Shown here piece by piece: positions 12,342-32,732 of a stretch of DNA of 33,017 nt. Position numbers and translations under genes: made by a program. Origin of the DNA: Bacillota bacterium (GTDB taxonomy: Bacteria > Bacillota > Sulfobacillia > Sulfobacillales > JAIMBI01). Position 1 is the first letter of the stretch; each line of letters starts with the position of its first letter. The stretch lies in assembly GCA_021846565.1 (NCBI GenBank), contig JAJZWS010000033.1:1-33017 (forward strand), given 5' to 3'. The notes beneath the pieces are model-generated. The model saw nothing but the letters and a program-made list of their open reading frames with translations. It was not told where the DNA came from and did no database searches.

Positions 12342-12371
12342 GTAGTACCATGGAGCCAGGAGGGATGCGTG

Positions 12372-12770
12372 ATGGCGGAGAACTTCGTGGCCGTGACGAC
12401 GCGCGAGTCCGTAAACGAGGCCATTCAGTCGGTGACCGAGCGGCTCCAGGCGCATCAGTTTGGGGTGCTGTGGCATCTGGACATCAATGAAAAACTTGTG
12501 GAGAAGGGGTTGGAGCCCGGATTGCCGTTTCATGTCCTCGAGGTGTGCAGCGCGCCCCGTGCCAAGGAGGCGCTCACCACCAACCAGCAGGTGGGCTACT
12601 TCCTACCGTGCAAAATTGTCGTGTACACCGACGGACAGACCGATGGCACGGTGATTGGGCTTCAGCGGCCCCGCCTCATGACGGATCTTTTGGGGGATCC
12701 GGCGCTTGAGCCCTTGGCCAACGAAGTCGAATCGCTGCTGACCACAGCCATCCAGGAGGCGGCCCACTAG
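12372..12770 (+). CDS. DUF302 domain protein, first gene of sulfur operon
   Basis: The 132-residue soluble protein matches DUF302 through FGVLWHLDINEKLVEKGL, then HVLEVCSAPRAKEAL, then GYFLPCKIVVYTDG and IGLQRPRLM. The two cysteines (VCSAP and LPCKI) sit at positions conserved in many DUF302 proteins near sulfur-oxidation genes. No reaction is established for the family; a role in binding or relaying sulfane sulfur or sensing redox is inference from context. The ATG at 12372 is preceded by AGGAGGG with 7-nt spacing, and an in-frame GTG lies one codon upstream. The operator at 12326-12341 sits in its promoter region. A 74-base gap with its own operator separates it from the next gene. Confidence 0.85.
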   Translation: MAENFVAVTTRESVNEAIQSVTERLQAHQFGVLWHLDINEKLVEKGLEPGLPFHVLEVCSAPRAKEALTTNQQVGYFLPCKIVVYTDGQTDGTVIGLQRPRLMTDLLGDPALEPLANEVESLLTTAIQEAAH

Positions 12771-12830: not shown

Positions 12831-12844
12831 AGGGGGTGATTTCG

Positions 12845-13669
12845 ATGTTTTGGCAAGTGCTGCGCGACCCCACGTTAGGGTGTAGCTCGTACGTGCTGGG
12901 CGACGACCTGGAGGGCAGCGCCATGGTGGTGGATGCCCTGGGGGCGGTGGGTGCCGAGGCATACGTGCTGGCGGCCCAGGAGGCGGGCCTGGCCATTCGC
13001 TGGGTCGTGGAGACGCATGTGCATGCGGATCATGCATCGGCAGCTCACGAGCTGGCCGTAGCGGTGAATGTGCCGGTCACGTTGAGTCATCGGGCGGTGG
13101 CCTCTTTTCCCACGACCCCGGTGCGGGACGGCGATGTGATTCGGTGGGGATCCGTGGGCGTGACGGTCTGGGAGACGCCTGGCCACACGCCTGACAGCAT
13201 CTCGCTGGTCGTGCGCGATACGGTGCGCGGCGACGACCCGTGGGTCGTGCTGACCGGCGACAGCCTGTTCGTAGGGGACGTGGGCCGGCCGGACCTGGGG
13301 GACGCGGCGTCGGCGAAGATTCGGGCGGCCGCGTTGGATCAGTTTCATAGCGTGCGGCGCTTCCTCACGCTGCCGGATTTTACCGAGGTGCACCCGGCGC
13401 ACTATGGATCCTCGCCGTGTGGGGGCTTGTTTATGAGCAAGAAGCCCAGCTCGACGGTGGGTTACGAACGACGCTTCAACCGCATGCTGATGTTAGATGA
13501 GCCGGAAGGGTTCGTGGACCAGCAGCTGGCGCTGCTAAAGCCGCCGCCGGCCGACGCGGAGCGCTTGCGACAAGTTAATCTCGGGGCGGTGGTGGCTCCG
13601 GCGGTCCACGAGGCCGCACCGGCGCTGCCGCTGGCCCCCTGGCTGCAACAGGGAGGGTTGATTCGATGA
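12845..13669 (+). CDS. ETHE1-like persulfide dioxygenase (MBL-fold)
   Basis: This 274-residue metallo-beta-lactamase-fold protein has H58-x-H60-x-D62-H63 (THVHADH), then ETPGHTPDS, DSLFVGDVGRPDL and HPAHYGSSPCGG, the series of motifs of the ETHE1/persulfide dioxygenase and bacterial sulfur dioxygenase group. The family oxidises glutathione or other thiol persulfides to sulfite with a mononuclear Fe(II). GDVGRPDL and the short distance to the next motif favour this over glyoxalase II. The C-terminal segment after YERRFNRML extends beyond the catalytic core. The ATG at 12845 has GGGGGTG 6 bases upstream. It overlaps the rhodanese gene by ATGA, so the two are translationally coupled. Confidence 0.88.
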   Translation: MFWQVLRDPTLGCSSYVLGDDLEGSAMVVDALGAVGAEAYVLAAQEAGLAIRWVVETHVHADHASAAHELAVAVNVPVTLSHRAVASFPTTPVRDGDVIRWGSVGVTVWETPGHTPDSISLVVRDTVRGDDPWVVLTGDSLFVGDVGRPDLGDAASAKIRAAALDQFHSVRRFLTLPDFTEVHPAHYGSSPCGGLFMSKKPSSTVGYERRFNRMLMLDEPEGFVDQQLALLKPPPADAERLRQVNLGAVVAPAVHEAAPALPLAPWLQQGGLIR

Positions 13670-14289
13670 CAGGAACCGGTGAGGAACTCATGAACGAGGC
13701 GGCCGCGGGCCGGCGGCTCCTGTTGGATGTCCGCCCGGGCGCTGCATACACCAAAGGACACGTGGCCCACAGTCTGTCGGCCCCGTATGTCCAGCGTGGG
13801 TGGGCGGCGGCCGTGAAAAATTGGTTGGATCGCCAGGGCCCCATTCCCGTCGTCGTGCTGGCCGACAATGCCGTCGTGGGGGCTGCCGCCCAGCATGCCC
13901 TCACGGACGCGGGCGTATCGTCCGTGTCGGTCATGGACGGGGGCCCCGAGGCATGGCAGACTGCGGGGCTCCGGCTGGTGTCGGTGCCGGACATCGCGGC
14001 GGACCAGCTGGCGGGGGAGTTGGCCGAGTGGACCGTCATCGACGTGCGCGAGCCGTACGAATGGCGGTCCGGGGTGATTCCCGGCGCCCGCACCATTCCC
14101 TTGAACCAGTTGCCCCATGAGGCTGGCGCGCTCGAGACGTCGCGGCGCTATGCCTTGGTGTGCGCGCACGGCAACCGCTCGCAGGCGGCTGCGGCGTTTC
14201 TGGCGGACCGGGGCTACCAGGTGGCCAACGTGCGCGGCGGCATGGCGTTGTGGCTGGCCGGCCGGCACCCAACGGCGCCGGTCGGCTAG
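13666..14289 (+). CDS. Tandem rhodanese-domain sulfurtransferase, one active site
   Basis: The 207-residue protein has two rhodanese-like domains. In the first (residues 1-105) the position of the catalytic cysteine reads VVLADNAVVGAAA, so it is inactive. The second (106-207) has C166 in CAHGNRS, a complete rhodanese active loop, plus the conserved VIDVREPYEW and GARTIPLNQ motifs. Such proteins move sulfane sulfur between persulfide carriers. Coupling to the persulfide dioxygenase suggests the rhodanese makes or removes the persulfide oxidised by that enzyme. The ATG overlaps the dioxygenase stop. Confidence 0.9.
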   Translation: MTGTGEELMNEAAAGRRLLLDVRPGAAYTKGHVAHSLSAPYVQRGWAAAVKNWLDRQGPIPVVVLADNAVVGAAAQHALTDAGVSSVSVMDGGPEAWQTAGLRLVSVPDIAADQLAGELAEWTVIDVREPYEWRSGVIPGARTIPLNQLPHEAGALETSRRYALVCAHGNRSQAAAAFLADRGYQVANVRGGMALWLAGRHPTAPVG

Positions 14290-14321
14290 CGACCGGTGCT
14301 CTATTGAGAAGGAGTCGATAC

Positions 14322-14972
14322 ATGAGCTTGATGACCGATGACGTCAAGGCAGAGGTGCGGCAATTTCTGGACGGCTTGGACAAGCCGGTGACGGTGCATG
14401 TGCATCCGGTGGCCGGGAACCCGGCCTCCGACGCCGTGGAGGAGTTGTGGCGCGATCTGGGTGCGATGAATCCCAAGGTGGTGGTGGCGGTGGAGAACCA
14501 GCGGCCCGCGCCGCTGGCGCCCGAGACCGCCGAGGATCTGGAGAGCGCGGTGACCACGTTCAGCGTGGACGGCGCAGACACGGGCATCCGGTACCTGGGC
14601 TTCCCGGGCGGCCACGAGTTTGGCCCCATGTTGCAGACGTTGCGGGATTTGTCGGCAGGTACGCCCCCCGAGCTCAGCCCGGCGGCGCGCAACTATGTGT
14701 CGCAGTTGAAGCAGCCGCTCCATCTGGAGGTGTTTGTCACCCCCACCTGACCCTACTGCCCCCAGGCAGTTCGCCTGGCCCAGCAGATGGCTCTGGTCAA
14801 CCCCACGTACGTGACGGTTGACATGGTGGATGCGCAGAGCTTCATGCGGTTGTCTCAGCGGTTTCGCGTCATGGGTGTGCCCATGACGCTGGTGAACGGT
14901 CAGGAGCAGGTGGTGGGCGCGGTGCCCGAGGACGCGCTGTTGGCGAAGATTCGTCAGGTGGCCACTCCCTGA
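14322..14972 (+). CDS. Candidate selenoprotein: thioredoxin-fold protein disulfide oxidoreductase with U-P-Y-C
   Basis: The frame opens at ATG 14322 (AAGGAG, 8-nt spacing) and reaches TGA at 14748-14750 (codon 143), then continues in the same frame to TGA at 14970-14972, 216 codons. Around the internal TGA the protein reads LEVFVTPT-TGA-PYCPQAV, exactly where archaeal-type protein disulfide oxidoreductases (two thioredoxin units, GlrX-like) carry VFVTPTCPYC. Family features continue after it: LAQQMALVNPTYV, then FRVMGVPMTLVNG with the cis-proline, then VGAVPED. UGA at the nucleophilic cysteine plus a downstream hairpin indicates selenocysteine (U143-P-Y-C146). The N-terminal thioredoxin unit has no CxxC. 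It follows the rhodanese by 32 bases. Alternatives are a TGC/TGT-to-TGA nonsense mutation or sequencing error; stopping at codon 143 would remove the whole redox site. Confidence 0.72.
14756..14786 (+). promoter_or_regulatory. SECIS-like hairpin just downstream of the in-frame TGA
   Basis: Inner stem CCAGGC (14762-14767) pairs with GCCTGG (14773-14778) around loop AGTTC. Outer stem CTGC (14756-14759) pairs with GCAG (14783-14786), with an internal loop of CC against CCCA. The apical loop lies 18-22 bases after the UGA and contains GU, as expected for bacterial SECIS elements, which lie within the coding sequence. The fit is by eye, not by a folding program. Confidence 0.6.
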
Positions 14973-14989: not shown

Positions 14990-16138
14990 TTGGTGTGGGC
15001 CACACTGTCTGTCAGTGTGGCCCTTTCCCTATCCGATGCCTTTGTGGTGCCGTTCCTATGGCTTGAGCGCGTGCCGCCGGCCCAGCTGCTGCTGTTTGCC
15101 GGCCTGCAGTTTCTGGCCATGGCCGGCGTGTTTTTCGGTGCGCGGTGGCTTCTGTGGCCGCCGCGCCGCTTCATGCAATGGGGTATCGCGCTCATGGCCC
15201 TGTTCTTGGTGAGCGTCGCCGGTCTCGGCCGGGCCGTCGCCCCGTGGGTGGATCCCTTGGGCATGGTGGCCGGCCTGGGCTACGGGTCCTACTGGCTGGG
15301 CTTGTACGTGGCCGCGTTGGGCGACACGCGGGACCGGGATCGGGACCGGTTCAATGGCACGGTGGGCACCGCCGAGGCGGCTGCCAGTCTGATGGGCCCG
15401 TTGGCCGGCGCCGCACTCATCCGGTGGGCGGGTGGGTTTGTGACGGTGTTTGCCATCTCGGTGGGGGGACTCGTGCCGTCCTGGCTCCTGACGCGGGGCG
15501 TGGAGGCTCACGCGCCGTCTGCCGCCGGCCCACGGCAGACGATGGGGCCCGACTGGCGTCCCCTCATGACCTGCATGGCGGCGCGCGGCGCCTATGAGGG
15601 CCTTCTGGTGGTGGTGCCCGGCCTCCTGCTGTTTGAGACGACCGGGTCTGCCGTTCAGGTGGGCGTGTTCACCAGCCTCTGGGCGGCGATGGCTCTGGTG
15701 GGGAACCATTGGGCGGGCAACGCCCAGGGCCTCGTCGCGCGCCGCCGGCTGGCCTGGATGGGGGCCGGGCTGGTCGCGACCGCCAGTGCGCTGTTGGCGG
15801 CTCTGCCCCTGTCGCTCAGCCTGTGGGGCTTTGGAGCCGCCGTGGGGCTGGCCATCCCGCTGCAGAAAGTGCCGCTCGAGGCGTGGAGCCTGGACGTGAT
15901 TGGTCGCGCGCCCCACCCTCACCGCGCCACCGCCAACAAGGAACTGGTGTTGAATGGGTCCCGCGCCGTGGGACTCCTGCTCGTGGCCCTGATGCTGGCG
16001 GGCGCGCGGGATGTGCCGGGACTCACGCGGGTGCTGCTGGTGGTGCCGGCGCCCGCCCTGGTCATGGCGGTGATGCTGGCGCGCGGCGCGCCGGGTTCCG
16101 GTCTCGAGGGCTCGGCGCAGCCCACGCAAATCCGCTGA
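14990..16138 (+). CDS. MFS-like transporter
   Basis: The 382-residue hydrophobic protein has about 10-12 helices. A short polar loop with DTRDRDRDRFNGTVGTAEA follows the first four helices, as in the loop between transmembrane segments 4 and 5 of MFS proteins. The halves are joined by a hydrophilic stretch around residues 165-185 (EAHAPSAAGPRQTMGPDWRP). No substrate can be assigned. Position directly after the sulfur operon would suit export of sulfite or another sulfur compound, but this is speculation. The start is uncertain: TTG 14990, GTG 14993 or a GTG at 15017 after the hairpin are all possible, none with a good ribosome binding site, so translation may be coupled to the previous gene. 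Confidence 0.75.
   Translation: MVWATLSVSVALSLSDAFVVPFLWLERVPPAQLLLFAGLQFLAMAGVFFGARWLLWPPRRFMQWGIALMALFLVSVAGLGRAVAPWVDPLGMVAGLGYGSYWLGLYVAALGDTRDRDRDRFNGTVGTAEAAASLMGPLAGAALIRWAGGFVTVFAISVGGLVPSWLLTRGVEAHAPSAAGPRQTMGPDWRPLMTCMAARGAYEGLLVVVPGLLLFETTGSAVQVGVFTSLWAAMALVGNHWAGNAQGLVARRRLAWMGAGLVATASALLAALPLSLSLWGFGAAVGLAIPLQKVPLEAWSLDVIGRAPHPHRATANKELVLNGSRAVGLLLVALMLAGARDVPGLTRVLLVVPAPALVMAVMLARGAPGSGLEGSAQPTQIR
14997..15023 (+). terminator. Perfect 11-bp hairpin followed by T-rich tract, at start of MFS gene
   Basis: GGGCCACACTG (14997-15007) pairs with CAGTGTGGCCC (15013-15023) around TCTGT, then TTTCCCT. This is the most terminator-like structure near the end of the sulfur operon, yet it lies within the first codons of the transporter frame. 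It could terminate most operon transcripts or attenuate transporter expression. Confidence 0.5.
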
Positions 16139-17263: not shown

Positions 17264-17644
17264 CTAACGAATCAGGCGCACGCGGTAACGGGGGAGCAAC
17301 TCGCCCCACACCCGGTCCGCGGTGAGTGCCGCATCCTGACGCATGTCGGCCAGGACCAGGCAGGCTCGGTCTCCGAGCGACAGCCCCAGCCGTCGCGTCT
17401 CGAGCGAGAGCACCTCAGCCGCTTCGGCATCCGGCTGGGTAAAGGGAACGACCGCGATATCGCGCAAGTCGGCCAGCACAGCGCGCCATGCATGGGAGGA
17501 GAGGCCGCCTTGGTGCAGCTTGGCCACAACCTCCGCCCAGTTGACAGCGCTCATGACCGCATCGGCCTCGAGAGCCTCAGCGACAATATCTGCCCCGGGC
17601 TCGGCGTGCAGGTAGGCCAGCAGGGCGGAGGCATCCAGCACCAT
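17264..17644 (-). CDS. vapC: VapC-family PIN-domain ribonuclease toxin
   Basis: The 126-residue PIN domain has the four acidic metal-binding residues D4 (VLDASALL), E38 (NWAEVV), D92 (LSLGDRACLVLA) and D110 (ALTADRVW). Type II VapC toxins are Mg-dependent endoribonucleases cutting tRNA or rRNA and are held inactive by the cognate antitoxin. The gene starts two bases after the antitoxin stop, in standard antitoxin-first order. All catalytic residues are present, so it should be functional. Confidence 0.93.
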   Translation of the reverse strand: MVLDASALLAYLHAEPGADIVAEALEADAVMSAVNWAEVVAKLHQGGLSSHAWRAVLADLRDIAVVPFTQPDAEAAEVLSLETRRLGLSLGDRACLVLADMRQDAALTADRVWGELLPRYRVRLIR

Positions 17645-17646
17645 CC

Positions 17647-17892
17647 CTATTCGCGGGCCGCTTCGCGGCGCCGCTCCGCTAAGAGTTCCTCCACAAGCGA
17701 TCGTTCAGGCGGCACGGATTGGGTGACCAGTTGCTGCGCGTGACGGTGGCGCTGCCGGGCGGACGTAACGCGAACGGCCTCTCCATCCCAGTCCAGCACC
17801 ACTGAGTCCCCATCCTTTACGTCCAAATACTGGCGCAATTCTTTGGGCAGGACAATTCGGCCACCAGAGGACACCCGGGAAACGATTGCCAT
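17647..17892 (-). CDS. vapB: AbrB/SpoVT-type antitoxin of the VapBC pair
   Basis: The 81-residue protein has an N-terminal swapped-hairpin DNA-binding domain (VSSGGRIVLPKELRQYLDVK, followed by GDSVVLDWDG). Its Arg/Glu-rich C-terminal tail (SLVEELLAERRREAARE) would wrap the toxin. The ATG at 17892 is preceded by CAGGGAGTG; six further in-frame residues upstream are possible. Autorepression is typical; a short TGAT-N2-ATCA inverted repeat at 17913-17922 just upstream is a candidate operator but too short to be firm. Confidence 0.9.
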   Translation of the reverse strand: MAIVSRVSSGGRIVLPKELRQYLDVKDGDSVVLDWDGEAVRVTSARQRHRHAQQLVTQSVPPERSLVEELLAERRREAARE

Positions 17893-17928
17893 GTGATCAC
17901 TCCCTGACAAGGTGATACATCATGACAC

Positions 17929-27199: not shown

Positions 27200-28641
27200 C
27201 TCGAACCGTAAAGTAGCCGTCCGGCATTCTCAACACCGGCAAGTGGGCGGCGGTTCTGGCCATGGCCACGGCCTACTCCCTGCAGGAGGATGCCTTTCTC
27301 CGGGCCCTCGCCCGGACGGTCCGGTGGGGCGACCTGGACAACCCCCGCGCCTTCCGAAATCGGGACAAGGCGGCCCGGGTGAACGTCTGGACGCTGCCGG
27401 TCCACCTCTATGACCGCGCCCTCTTCGACGCCGTGGATACGATGAAACGCTGGATCCTGGCCGCCCTCGCCCAGGCGCACATCGAGGGAAAACTCTTCCG
27501 GGCCTTCGAGGGGCAACAGCGCCGGTACGCCTTCTGGCTGCTCCGGAAGTGCGTCCGGATCGGGGCGGTGCCTAGGGGTGATGCTCCGGAGCCTAGATTT
27601 GAGATGTCTCTGGCGGAGCGCCAGGCGGTGGTCCGGCGGCTGCGCCGTCTGCTCCGCAAGGCCCTGGGCAAATCACCGCGGGTGCACCGGCGCCGCTCGT
27701 TCGCACTGGACAATACGCTCTACCGCTTCTTTACGCACAAAGACCAAGCGTACCTTTCCCTTGCCAGCTTGATCCCGGGCCGGCGGATCGTCATCCCCCT
27801 CAGGGGCTGTCCCGTCCCAGCGGTCACCGGCAACGTTCGGGTGGTGATCAACCCGATCACGCATACGGTGGCCATCCATGTTCCCGTTCCGGTCCGGATC
27901 AAAACCGTGCCCGCACGCCGCGAACCTCTGGTGGTCGGCTTGGACGCCGGCGTGACCGAGGTCTTCGCCGACAGCCGGGGCCATTTCTACGGGGAGGGGT
28001 TCGGCCGCGTTTTGGACCGCCTGAGCGCACAGACCATGGCGCAGGGGGCGGCACGGAACCGCCTCCATGCGGCGGAGAAAACACTGGCCGCCTCGCCCCG
28101 GGTCGGGGAGCGGGAAAAAGCGGGCCGGATGCGGCGGTTCAACCTTGGGCGGATGAAACTGGATGCGCGCAGAGTCAAGGATCAAGCCGAGGTGACGCGT
28201 CGGATTGCCGAAGCGATGCGGGAGGTGCTGCGCTCCCGGCCGGAGGTGTTGGTGATGGAGGATCTGAGCCGGATGCGGGGCCGGACCCAAAGCCGGAACC
28301 TCTCCCGCGTGGTCTCGCGCTGGATGCGGTCAAGCCTGAAGGAACGGGCAGAGTTCCTGTCCCACGCGGGAGGTTCCCGCTTGGAGATGGTGAACGCGGC
28401 TTACACGTCCCAGGAGTGTCCGGAGTGCGGTTAGGTCCACAAGGATAACCGTCAGGGCGATCGGTTCCATTGCCAAAACTGCCATTTCACCGGCCACGCC
28501 GATACGGTGGGCGCGGTGAATGTGGGGCACCGGTATACCGATCCCGAACGGCGGGAACGAATCGCGGTCTTCACGCCGAAGGAGGGGGTGTTGAAGAGTC
28601 TCCGGGAGATTTTCGAGCGCCAGCAGGCGTTCTCCAACTGA
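27196..28641 (+). pseudogene. tnpB: IS607 TnpB RuvC-like nuclease, interrupted by two in-frame TAGs
   Basis: GTG 27196 overlaps the tnpA stop. The frame meets TAG at codon 7 (27214-27216) and TAG at codon 413 (28432-28434), and is otherwise open to TGA at 28639-28641 (482 codons). RuvC-I is VVGLDAGVTEVFADS, RuvC-II VLVMEDLSRM, and the zinc ribbon is CPECG-TAG-VHKDNRQ...HCQNC, where TnpB usually has CGYV. RuvC-III is GHADTVGAVNV. The second stop removes half the zinc ribbon and the RuvC-III aspartate. Internal ATG 27262 could restart translation but not repair the end. TnpB is an RNA-guided nuclease; this copy works only if the TAGs are suppressed. Confidence 0.85.
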
Positions 28642-31189: not shown

Positions 31190-31511
31190 ACCGGTGGGCG
31201 CGGAGCTGACCGTTGTCGAGGACGGGATCCAGGAGATCGGAGGAGCTGCGCCGAAGGGGATGGAGACGTCCGATCGAGGGACAGGCTAAGTCCTCCTTGC
31301 GCCTGAGCGCTGCCGAAGAATGCCGCCGCGCCCCGGTCCGCCCATCGCTGACCCCCACGGTGCGCCCGGCGCCGCGGACTGCGGGAGCAGCAGCCCGCAG
31401 AACGCCCCGCGACGCTGCCGAAGCGCTAATCGGACAGCAAGGCGGCGAATAGCCGACCGGGCGGCGAGGCTCCCCGATCACGGACGGTCGCCCAGAAAGG
31501 AGGTGATTCAG
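31190..31511 (+). ncRNA. Candidate bridge RNA region of the IS110 element
   Basis: IS110-group elements encode their bridge RNA in the non-coding segment before the transposase. This 320-base segment is GC-rich and structured, for example CTGCGGG (31379-31385) pairing with CCCGCAG (31394-31400). Target- and donor-binding loops were not identified. Several open frames here look like shadows and lack ribosome binding sites. Confidence 0.4.
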
Positions 31512-32732
31512 ATGGAAACCATCTTGGTGGGCATCGACGTGACCGGCCAGGCCCGCTACGGCCACGGCCGCTTCCCCAATACGGCGCCCGGGGCCGCGAG
31601 TCTGGTCGCGGCGTTGACGACCGGGATCCCGGCGGGCCGTACGGGCGTCCGCCTCGGCTTGGAAGCCACGGGCGTCTACGCCGGGCATCTGGCCCTGTTC
31701 CTGAGCCAGGCCCCTGCCCTGACCCCGTACGCGGCCACGGTCTCCCGGCTCCAGCCGCGCACCGTCCATCGCTCCATCGCGGCCTTTGCCAGCCGCCGCA
31801 GCAAGACGGACCCCGAAGACGCGTGGCACATCGCCGCCGTGCTGGGCCAGCCGGCCTGGCGGCCTCACCCGTTCCAGATCACGGAGCGGACGGTGGCCCG
31901 GCAGCGGCTGACCCGCCACCGCCGCCACTGGGTCCAGACCCTGGCGCGGATGAACAACGACGGCGCCAGCTATCTCTTCTGGCAAGCCAGTGGCTTGGCC
32001 CGCGACCCGCCCGGGACGGACCCCTGGGGCGCCAGCGCCACGGGCGTCCTCACGCGCTATGCCACGAGTGAAGACATCGCCGCCGCCCCACTGGACGACT
32101 GGGTCCGGGACCTGGGGCACGACGCCCACGGACGCCTGGCCGACCCGGCCGCCGTCGCCCGCGCGATCCAGCGAGCCGCGCGCGACTCGTACCGCCTGCC
32201 CACCGTGCTGAAGGACCCCGTGCACCAGATCCTGAGCGGGACGGTGCAGGACATCCGCTACCTGACCCAGCAGATCCACGCCGTGGACCAGCGCATCGCG
32301 CGCGAACCCGCCGTGACCACGACCCGCTGGCAGACCGTACCCGGCATCGGCCCGGTCTTCGCCGCGGGCCTCCTCGCCGAAATCGGCGCCATCGGCGCCT
32401 TTCCGAGCGATGACCCACGGGCCCCGTGCGCCGGCCTCACGTGGCCGGCGGCCCAGTCCGGCCAGCTGACCCGCGAGGACCGCCCGCTGGCCCGGACCGG
32501 CAACGCCTTTCTCCGGTACTACCTGGTGGCAGCCGCCAACCGTGTCCGCCGGAATGAGCCCCGCTATGGGGCGTACTACGCCAAGCAGCTCGCCGAGAGC
32601 ACCCCGTGCGCCCACCGCCGGGCCTTGGTGCTCACGGCGCGGAAGTTGACCCGCTTGGTCTTCGCTGTGCTGCGCGATGACCGGGCGTACAATCCGGAGC
32701 ACCCGTCGGCGCTCCCCCATCGGTCCGCCTAG
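31512..32732 (+). CDS. IS110-family transposase
   Basis: The 406-residue recombinase has the RuvC-like N-terminal DEDD domain (VGIDVTG, LGLEATGVYAGHL, SKTDPEDAWHIA) and a C-terminal Transposase_20 domain with the helix-hairpin-helix-like VPGIGPVFAAGLLAEIG. A Ser-containing segment (AAQSGQLTRED, then ARTGNAFLRYYL) follows, where the catalytic serine of the C-terminal domain resides. Length is normal and no stops interrupt the frame. AAAGGAGGTGA lies just before the ATG at 31512. A 9-bp hairpin follows the stop. Activity is therefore plausible. Confidence 0.93.
   Translation: METILVGIDVTGQARYGHGRFPNTAPGAASLVAALTTGIPAGRTGVRLGLEATGVYAGHLALFLSQAPALTPYAATVSRLQPRTVHRSIAAFASRRSKTDPEDAWHIAAVLGQPAWRPHPFQITERTVARQRLTRHRRHWVQTLARMNNDGASYLFWQASGLARDPPGTDPWGASATGVLTRYATSEDIAAAPLDDWVRDLGHDAHGRLADPAAVARAIQRAARDSYRLPTVLKDPVHQILSGTVQDIRYLTQQIHAVDQRIAREPAVTTTRWQTVPGIGPVFAAGLLAEIGAIGAFPSDDPRAPCAGLTWPAAQSGQLTREDRPLARTGNAFLRYYLVAAANRVRRNEPRYGAYYAKQLAESTPCAHRRALVLTARKLTRLVFAVLRDDRAYNPEHPSALPHRSA

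Follow-up and report, generated by a model that had tools for sequence, protein, structure and literature searches.

The gene at positions 14322..14972 on the forward strand of the window (the whole stretch of 33,017 nucleotides analyzed here) is almost certainly a genuine selenoprotein gene, judging from its sequence and from that of its relatives. It is predicted to encode a Sec-containing protein disulfide oxidoreductase (PDO) of 216 aa with two thioredoxin-like domains and a sole redox centre, UPYC (U143/C146), in which Cys146 is the only cysteine of the protein. The protein is a member of an already catalogued selenoprotein family, of which it represents a single-centre form. The reading frame starts with an ATG at 14322, located 7 nt downstream of a ribosome-binding site visible in the sequence (AAGGAG, 14309..14314, +). 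It contains a single internal TGA at 14748..14750 (codon 143, the putative Sec codon), continues for 73 open codons and ends at a TGA stop at 14970-14972. Reading through with Sec gives the active site TPT-U-PYC, and the cis-proline segment VMGVPMT lies downstream of it. The original prediction had described a TGA in the place of the first CPYC cysteine, an open frame of 73 codons behind it and this same cis-proline segment, all of which are confirmed. The frame matches the Pfam families Thioredoxin_3 and Glutaredoxin. A standard gene caller would cut the protein short at residue 142.

The in-frame UGA is shared across the order. A homolog was found at some level in all 42 order genomes examined, and the 30 best-matching loci of the order were aligned for the UGA-column counts. 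The codon-143 column, which had been singled out earlier for a comparison of Cys and Sec among homologs, holds UGA (UPYC) in 27 of these 30 and TGC (CPYC) in the other three. Nearly all close pairs have a Ka/Ks (Nei-Gojobori) of 0.04-0.15 downstream of the UGA, matching the low values upstream, and the downstream part is therefore under purifying selection, as had been supposed from the window alone. An isolated nonsense TGA with decay behind it, the case that would have spoken against the original prediction, fails on both the order-wide UGA and the downstream selection. The window's genome is a single draft assembly (3.4 Mb, 134 contigs, 95.7% complete), and the TGA could in principle be a nonsense mutation, the mark of a pseudogene or a sequencing error. 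However, the same UGA occurs in homologs from genomes assembled in 1-3 contigs, the frame is intact with Ka/Ks well below 1 past the UGA, and the hairpin behind it (see below) is constrained. The comparative data refute a sequencing error or pseudogene, and this explanation has a negligible probability.

The selA, selB, selC and selD genes, for which the same genome was to be searched and whose absence would have refuted the original prediction, are all represented in it. The tRNA-Sec scores 67.8 bits, above the Rfam gathering score, and is confirmed by ARAGORN (anticodon tca). SelA scores 511 bits, SelB 300 bits (321 with a C-terminal piece) and SelD 350 bits. The SelD gene (G000:C53:6178-7104, minus strand; L017) carries an in-frame TGA, and SelD is thus probably a selenoprotein itself. 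In-frame UGA codons in SelD as well as in paralogs of the metallo-beta-lactamase-fold (MBL) protein of the window (see below) could also be read as a genome-wide reassignment of UGA, for instance to Trp or Gly, instead of Sec recoding. Yet the UGA at 14970-14972 terminates the Sec gene itself, the aligned residue is Cys and neither Trp nor Gly, and the Sec machinery is complete. UGA stops and Cys at the aligned column refute reassignment, which we consider extremely improbable.

The exceptions in the order concern both the codon and the machinery. Two of the three Cys forms belong to genus g6 (G010, G011), and no SelA, SelB or tRNA-Sec was found above cut-off in either genome; for this reason, Cys is taken to substitute for Sec in this genus where the machinery is absent. 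The third Cys form comes from a 59% complete genome (G031) that still has SelA and a contig-edge fragment with UPYC. One 97% complete assembly (G005, locus L032) contains UPYC and SelB, with SelA and tRNA-Sec not found. The simplest explanation is probably an assembly gap, but an early loss of the Sec trait may be an alternative.

Directly behind the UGA, we found a predicted bSECIS hairpin at 14762..14778 (+) with the stem CCAGGC (14762-14767)/GCCUGG (14773-14778) and the loop AGUUC (14768-14772), exactly the GU-containing loop 18-22 bases past the TGA that had been described beforehand. The hairpin has a 6 bp stem, a 5-nt loop and a distance of 17 nt from UGA to loop, with -10.0 kcal/mol for the hairpin alone. 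A published bacterial SECIS model specifies a loop of 3-9 nt, a stem of 4-16 bp, a spacing of 16-37 nt from the UGA and a minimum free energy of at most -7.5 kcal/mol, with G among the first two bases of the loop, mostly as N-G-[G/U]-N-N (PMC13188914). The hairpin after UGA 143 agrees with this model in every respect, and this agreement together with the order-wide constraint on the stem bears out the earlier SECIS reading. A scan of the window against Rfam at gathering scores gave no matches, and the fold of the hairpin region in this one sequence exceeds chance only slightly (z -1.9).

Since the hairpin region is coding, the hairpin was tested at synonymous sites. The 27 Sec forms offer 71 four-fold-degenerate columns, and variation is lowest at codons +4 (CCC in 25/27), +8 (CGC in 24/25) and +9 (CTG in 25/27), exactly the three columns with their third base inside the stem (chance draw 1 in 57,155). 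Third bases within the loop are free to vary, and codon +5 (CAG or CGG) always ends in G. At codon +9, the Sec forms have CTN and the three Cys forms TTG, TTG and TTA. Among 26 distinct Sec sequences, relatives from outside the order included, 96% of the helix cells are paired, a value reached by none of 500 shuffles; sliding the partner lowers the pairing to at most 51%, and one compensatory change from a G-C to a U-A pair was found. Two order sequences depart from the stem, and folding still predicts a hairpin in the same region for both. Codon resampling sequence by sequence gave weak results (p about 0.01-0.25 for most), and the informative test is the column-wise one over all sequences, not the resampling of each. 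From this comparative evidence, namely a UGA and a stem kept across the order, the predicted hairpin is beyond chance. The gene is an unusually clean case of a selenoprotein, with the Sec codon kept across the order, Cys in one genus that has lost the machinery and the footprint of a SECIS stem at synonymous sites.

With regard to protein class, the NCBIfam model TIGR02187 (named PDO_seleno_TRX by NCBI) aligns to the window protein over its full length (residues 6-212 on model positions 2-208 of 209, E 3.6e-50), which supports the originally proposed UPYC protein disulfide oxidoreductase type, as do the PDO structures discussed below. The score of 170.2 bits is below the NCBI curated equivalog cut-off of 185 bits. 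Because members of the order straddle this cut-off (166-214 bits), we class the window protein by its sequence as a member of a TIGR02187-like selenoprotein group and not as an NCBI equivalog. Four Sec-containing relatives from outside the order score 256-274 bits on the same model. With the TIGR02187 family (representative ABB15282.1), the protein shares the UxxC in the C-terminal thioredoxin-like domain, the full-length match and a SECIS element directly after the UGA. It differs, besides the score, in its first thioredoxin-like domain, where none of the 30 aligned order homologs has a CXXC motif, whereas Sec-containing relatives from other parts of the class and phylum that span the motif (e.g., L053, L062, L065, L069) have kept CPYC, CEYC or similar. 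Since the order homologs lack this N-domain CXXC and Sec relatives outside the order retain it, the window protein is probably a derived single-centre form, here resembling the AhpF N-terminal domain.

The nearest solved relatives are archaeal and thermophile PDOs (1j08, E 7e-29), with AhpF N-terminal domains coming next. The PDOs (PDB 1a8l, 1j08, 2ayt, 2ywm) have the same two tandem thioredoxin-like domains, a C-terminal CPYC and the cis-Pro segment. In contrast to 1j08 and 1a8l, which have CQYC in the N-domain and CPYC in the C-domain, the window protein has one centre only, with Sec; with U143 and C146 alone, it is not a classical two-centre PDO with CXXC in both domains. The AhpF N-terminal domain likewise has one redox centre, in its second domain. 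Homology to this domain (PDB 1hyu, 1zyn, 4o5q) extends over residues 6-210 of the window protein. Unlike in AhpF, the protein stands alone and Sec replaces the nucleophilic Cys; its 216 aa comprise the N-terminal-type region only, and the C-terminal flavoprotein (TrxR-like) part of AhpF is absent. An AlphaFold model of the Sec protein, built on a 4-row alignment, is of low confidence (mean pLDDT 49.5). Taken together, the assignment as a selenoprotein of this protein class is very probably correct.

The gene had been put forward as a probable new selenoprotein, a claim to novelty that does not hold at the level of the family. The UxxC family ‘Homolog of AhpF N-terminal domain (Grx-like domain protein)’, TIGR02187, has been on selenoprotein lists since 2006, when Carboxydothermus hydrogenoformans and Symbiobacterium thermophilum were given as carrying members (PMC1794560), and was listed again in 2022 and 2026 (PMC9312934, PMC13188914). 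In Sulfobacillus, Sec-containing forms of formate dehydrogenase and of peroxiredoxin have been noted (PMC4378227, PMC7409299). Our literature search (Sulfobacillus with selenoprotein; persulfide dioxygenase with rhodanese and selenoprotein) returned no prior report of the operon.

The more novel lead is a persulfide-dioxygenase-like paralog of the window's MBL protein with two in-frame TGAs, located in the same genome but outside the window at G000:C106:10506-11222, minus strand (L119; L109:2507-3223 minus), between a gene for a rhodanese-like-domain protein and an MFS-like gene (annotation by eye). Paralogs with one or two TGAs were found at 18 loci in 16 order genomes (including L120-L134, L142 and L143). 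The first UGA lies in ASYLFG-U-G and the second in GST-U-GRDLSGK; both columns are occupied by Cys in L135-L137, which are Cys-only homologs, as well as in two solved homologs, 3tp9 and 3r2u. Both sites are followed by a hairpin, AGUGG-UGGAU-CCACU at 25 nt from UGA to loop (minimal hairpin -5.1 kcal/mol) and GUGGAAA-GGUCG-UUUCCAC at 20 nt (minimal hairpin -7.2 kcal/mol). The fit of these hairpins to the SECIS model is incomplete because both are weaker than the published limit of -7.5. In 14 double-UGA sequences, two four-fold third positions are invariant in each hairpin region, against a gene-wide median entropy of 1.49 bits, and for these putative SECIS elements conservation is a stronger argument than folding energy. 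No NCBIfam selenoprotein model matches the MBL paralog, and the words ‘MBL’, ‘lactamase’ and ‘hydrolase’ are absent from the text of the 2026 selenoprotein review (PMC13188914). Judged against this catalogue and the NCBIfam models, the paralog looks like a double selenoprotein that is probably uncatalogued.

Three orthologs of the double-UGA MBL protein (L128, L131 and L143, in G020 and G022) carry UGA only at the second site, the first being Cys, and the two sites therefore convert independently. As a separate observation, two-domain thioredoxin-fold UxxC paralogs are expanded in the order (L095-L106, L108). UGA is found at the active-site position in 13/13 of these sampled paralogs, with the motifs UPHC, UAFC, UTFC, UTRC, UPYC, UPKC and UPRC.

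Three genes lie upstream of the Sec gene on the same strand. They encode a DUF302 protein (12369..12770, +), which is present in a single copy in most order genomes and often adjoins the Sec gene, an MBL-fold protein resembling persulfide dioxygenases (ETHE1-like; 12836..13669, +; motifs THVHADH and GDSLFVGDVGRPD) and a tandem rhodanese (13666..14289, +) with the catalytic loop CAHGNRS in the C-terminal domain only and a single Cys166. The downstream gene, conserved in the genus, encodes an MFS-like transporter (14990..16138, +). Further along the window, a PIN toxin/MazE-like antitoxin pair (17264-17910, -) separates the sulfur cluster from a class-V aminotransferase (cysteine desulfurase-like) gene, and the window also contains a TnpB-like gene (27262-28434, +) and an IS110-family transposase gene (31320-32732, +).

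The original prediction had placed the Sec gene in a persulfide operon. The linkage itself recurs: at least one MBL, rhodanese or DUF302 relative is present in 13 of 20 homolog neighbourhoods (three of the 20 being close same-genus relatives). DUF302 is single-copy in 18/21 genomes and lies within 2 kb of the Sec gene on the same strand in 9/21, an arrangement that random placement would produce in about 0.1% of genomes by our own arithmetic. The functional part of that claim is drawn from gene neighbourhood, which makes a role in persulfide turnover plausible, with a presumed substrate. Such a role need not be general, since the sulfur-gene neighbours are absent at the other seven of the 20 homologs. 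As the main role of the Sec protein, we propose persulfide turnover tentatively, at somewhat less than an even chance.

Under the proposed mechanism, the hairpin just 3' of UGA 143 would recruit SelB carrying Sec-tRNA-Sec, so that this UGA is read as selenocysteine, while translation would stop at the terminal UGA, which has no such hairpin. The product would be a full-length cytosolic two-domain thioredoxin-fold reductase of the PDO/AhpF-N-terminal type with the centre Sec143-Pro-Tyr-Cys146. Sec143 would attack a disulfide or persulfide and Cys146 would resolve the intermediate, with re-reduction probably by a thioredoxin-reductase-like flavoprotein. The most likely physiological job would be the clearance or reduction of persulfides, those of proteins as well as low-molecular-weight ones, that the neighbouring rhodanese and dioxygenase-like MBL enzyme produce or use. 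Sec insertion itself, the redox partner and the substrate are what we infer here.

The selenoprotein could instead be a general disulfide or peroxiredoxin reductant, an AhpF-N-terminal-like carrier passing electrons from a flavoprotein to AhpC/Prx, whose operon neighbours merely share its regulation. The protein resembles the AhpF N-terminal domain, which also has its one redox centre in the second domain, and this speaks for such a carrier, as do the seven neighbourhoods mentioned above and the Sec peroxiredoxin reported in Sulfobacillus thermotolerans (PMC7409299). On the other hand, MBL, rhodanese and DUF302 genes are repeatedly found linked to the Sec gene in the same direction, and no peroxiredoxin gene was seen beside it in the window. 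We regard a general reductant as quite possible, though a little short of an even call.

Returning to persulfide turnover, the order may run a selenium-based sulfane-sulfur pathway, with the single-centre Sec-PDO as a selenol persulfide reductase beside the rhodanese and dioxygenase-like genes and the MBL paralog as a double selenoprotein of a family not found in the published catalogue, a proposal that we advance as a conjecture with slightly less than half of our confidence. The arrangement in the window places predicted Sec chemistry beside persulfide metabolism in apparently acidophilic sulfur bacteria.
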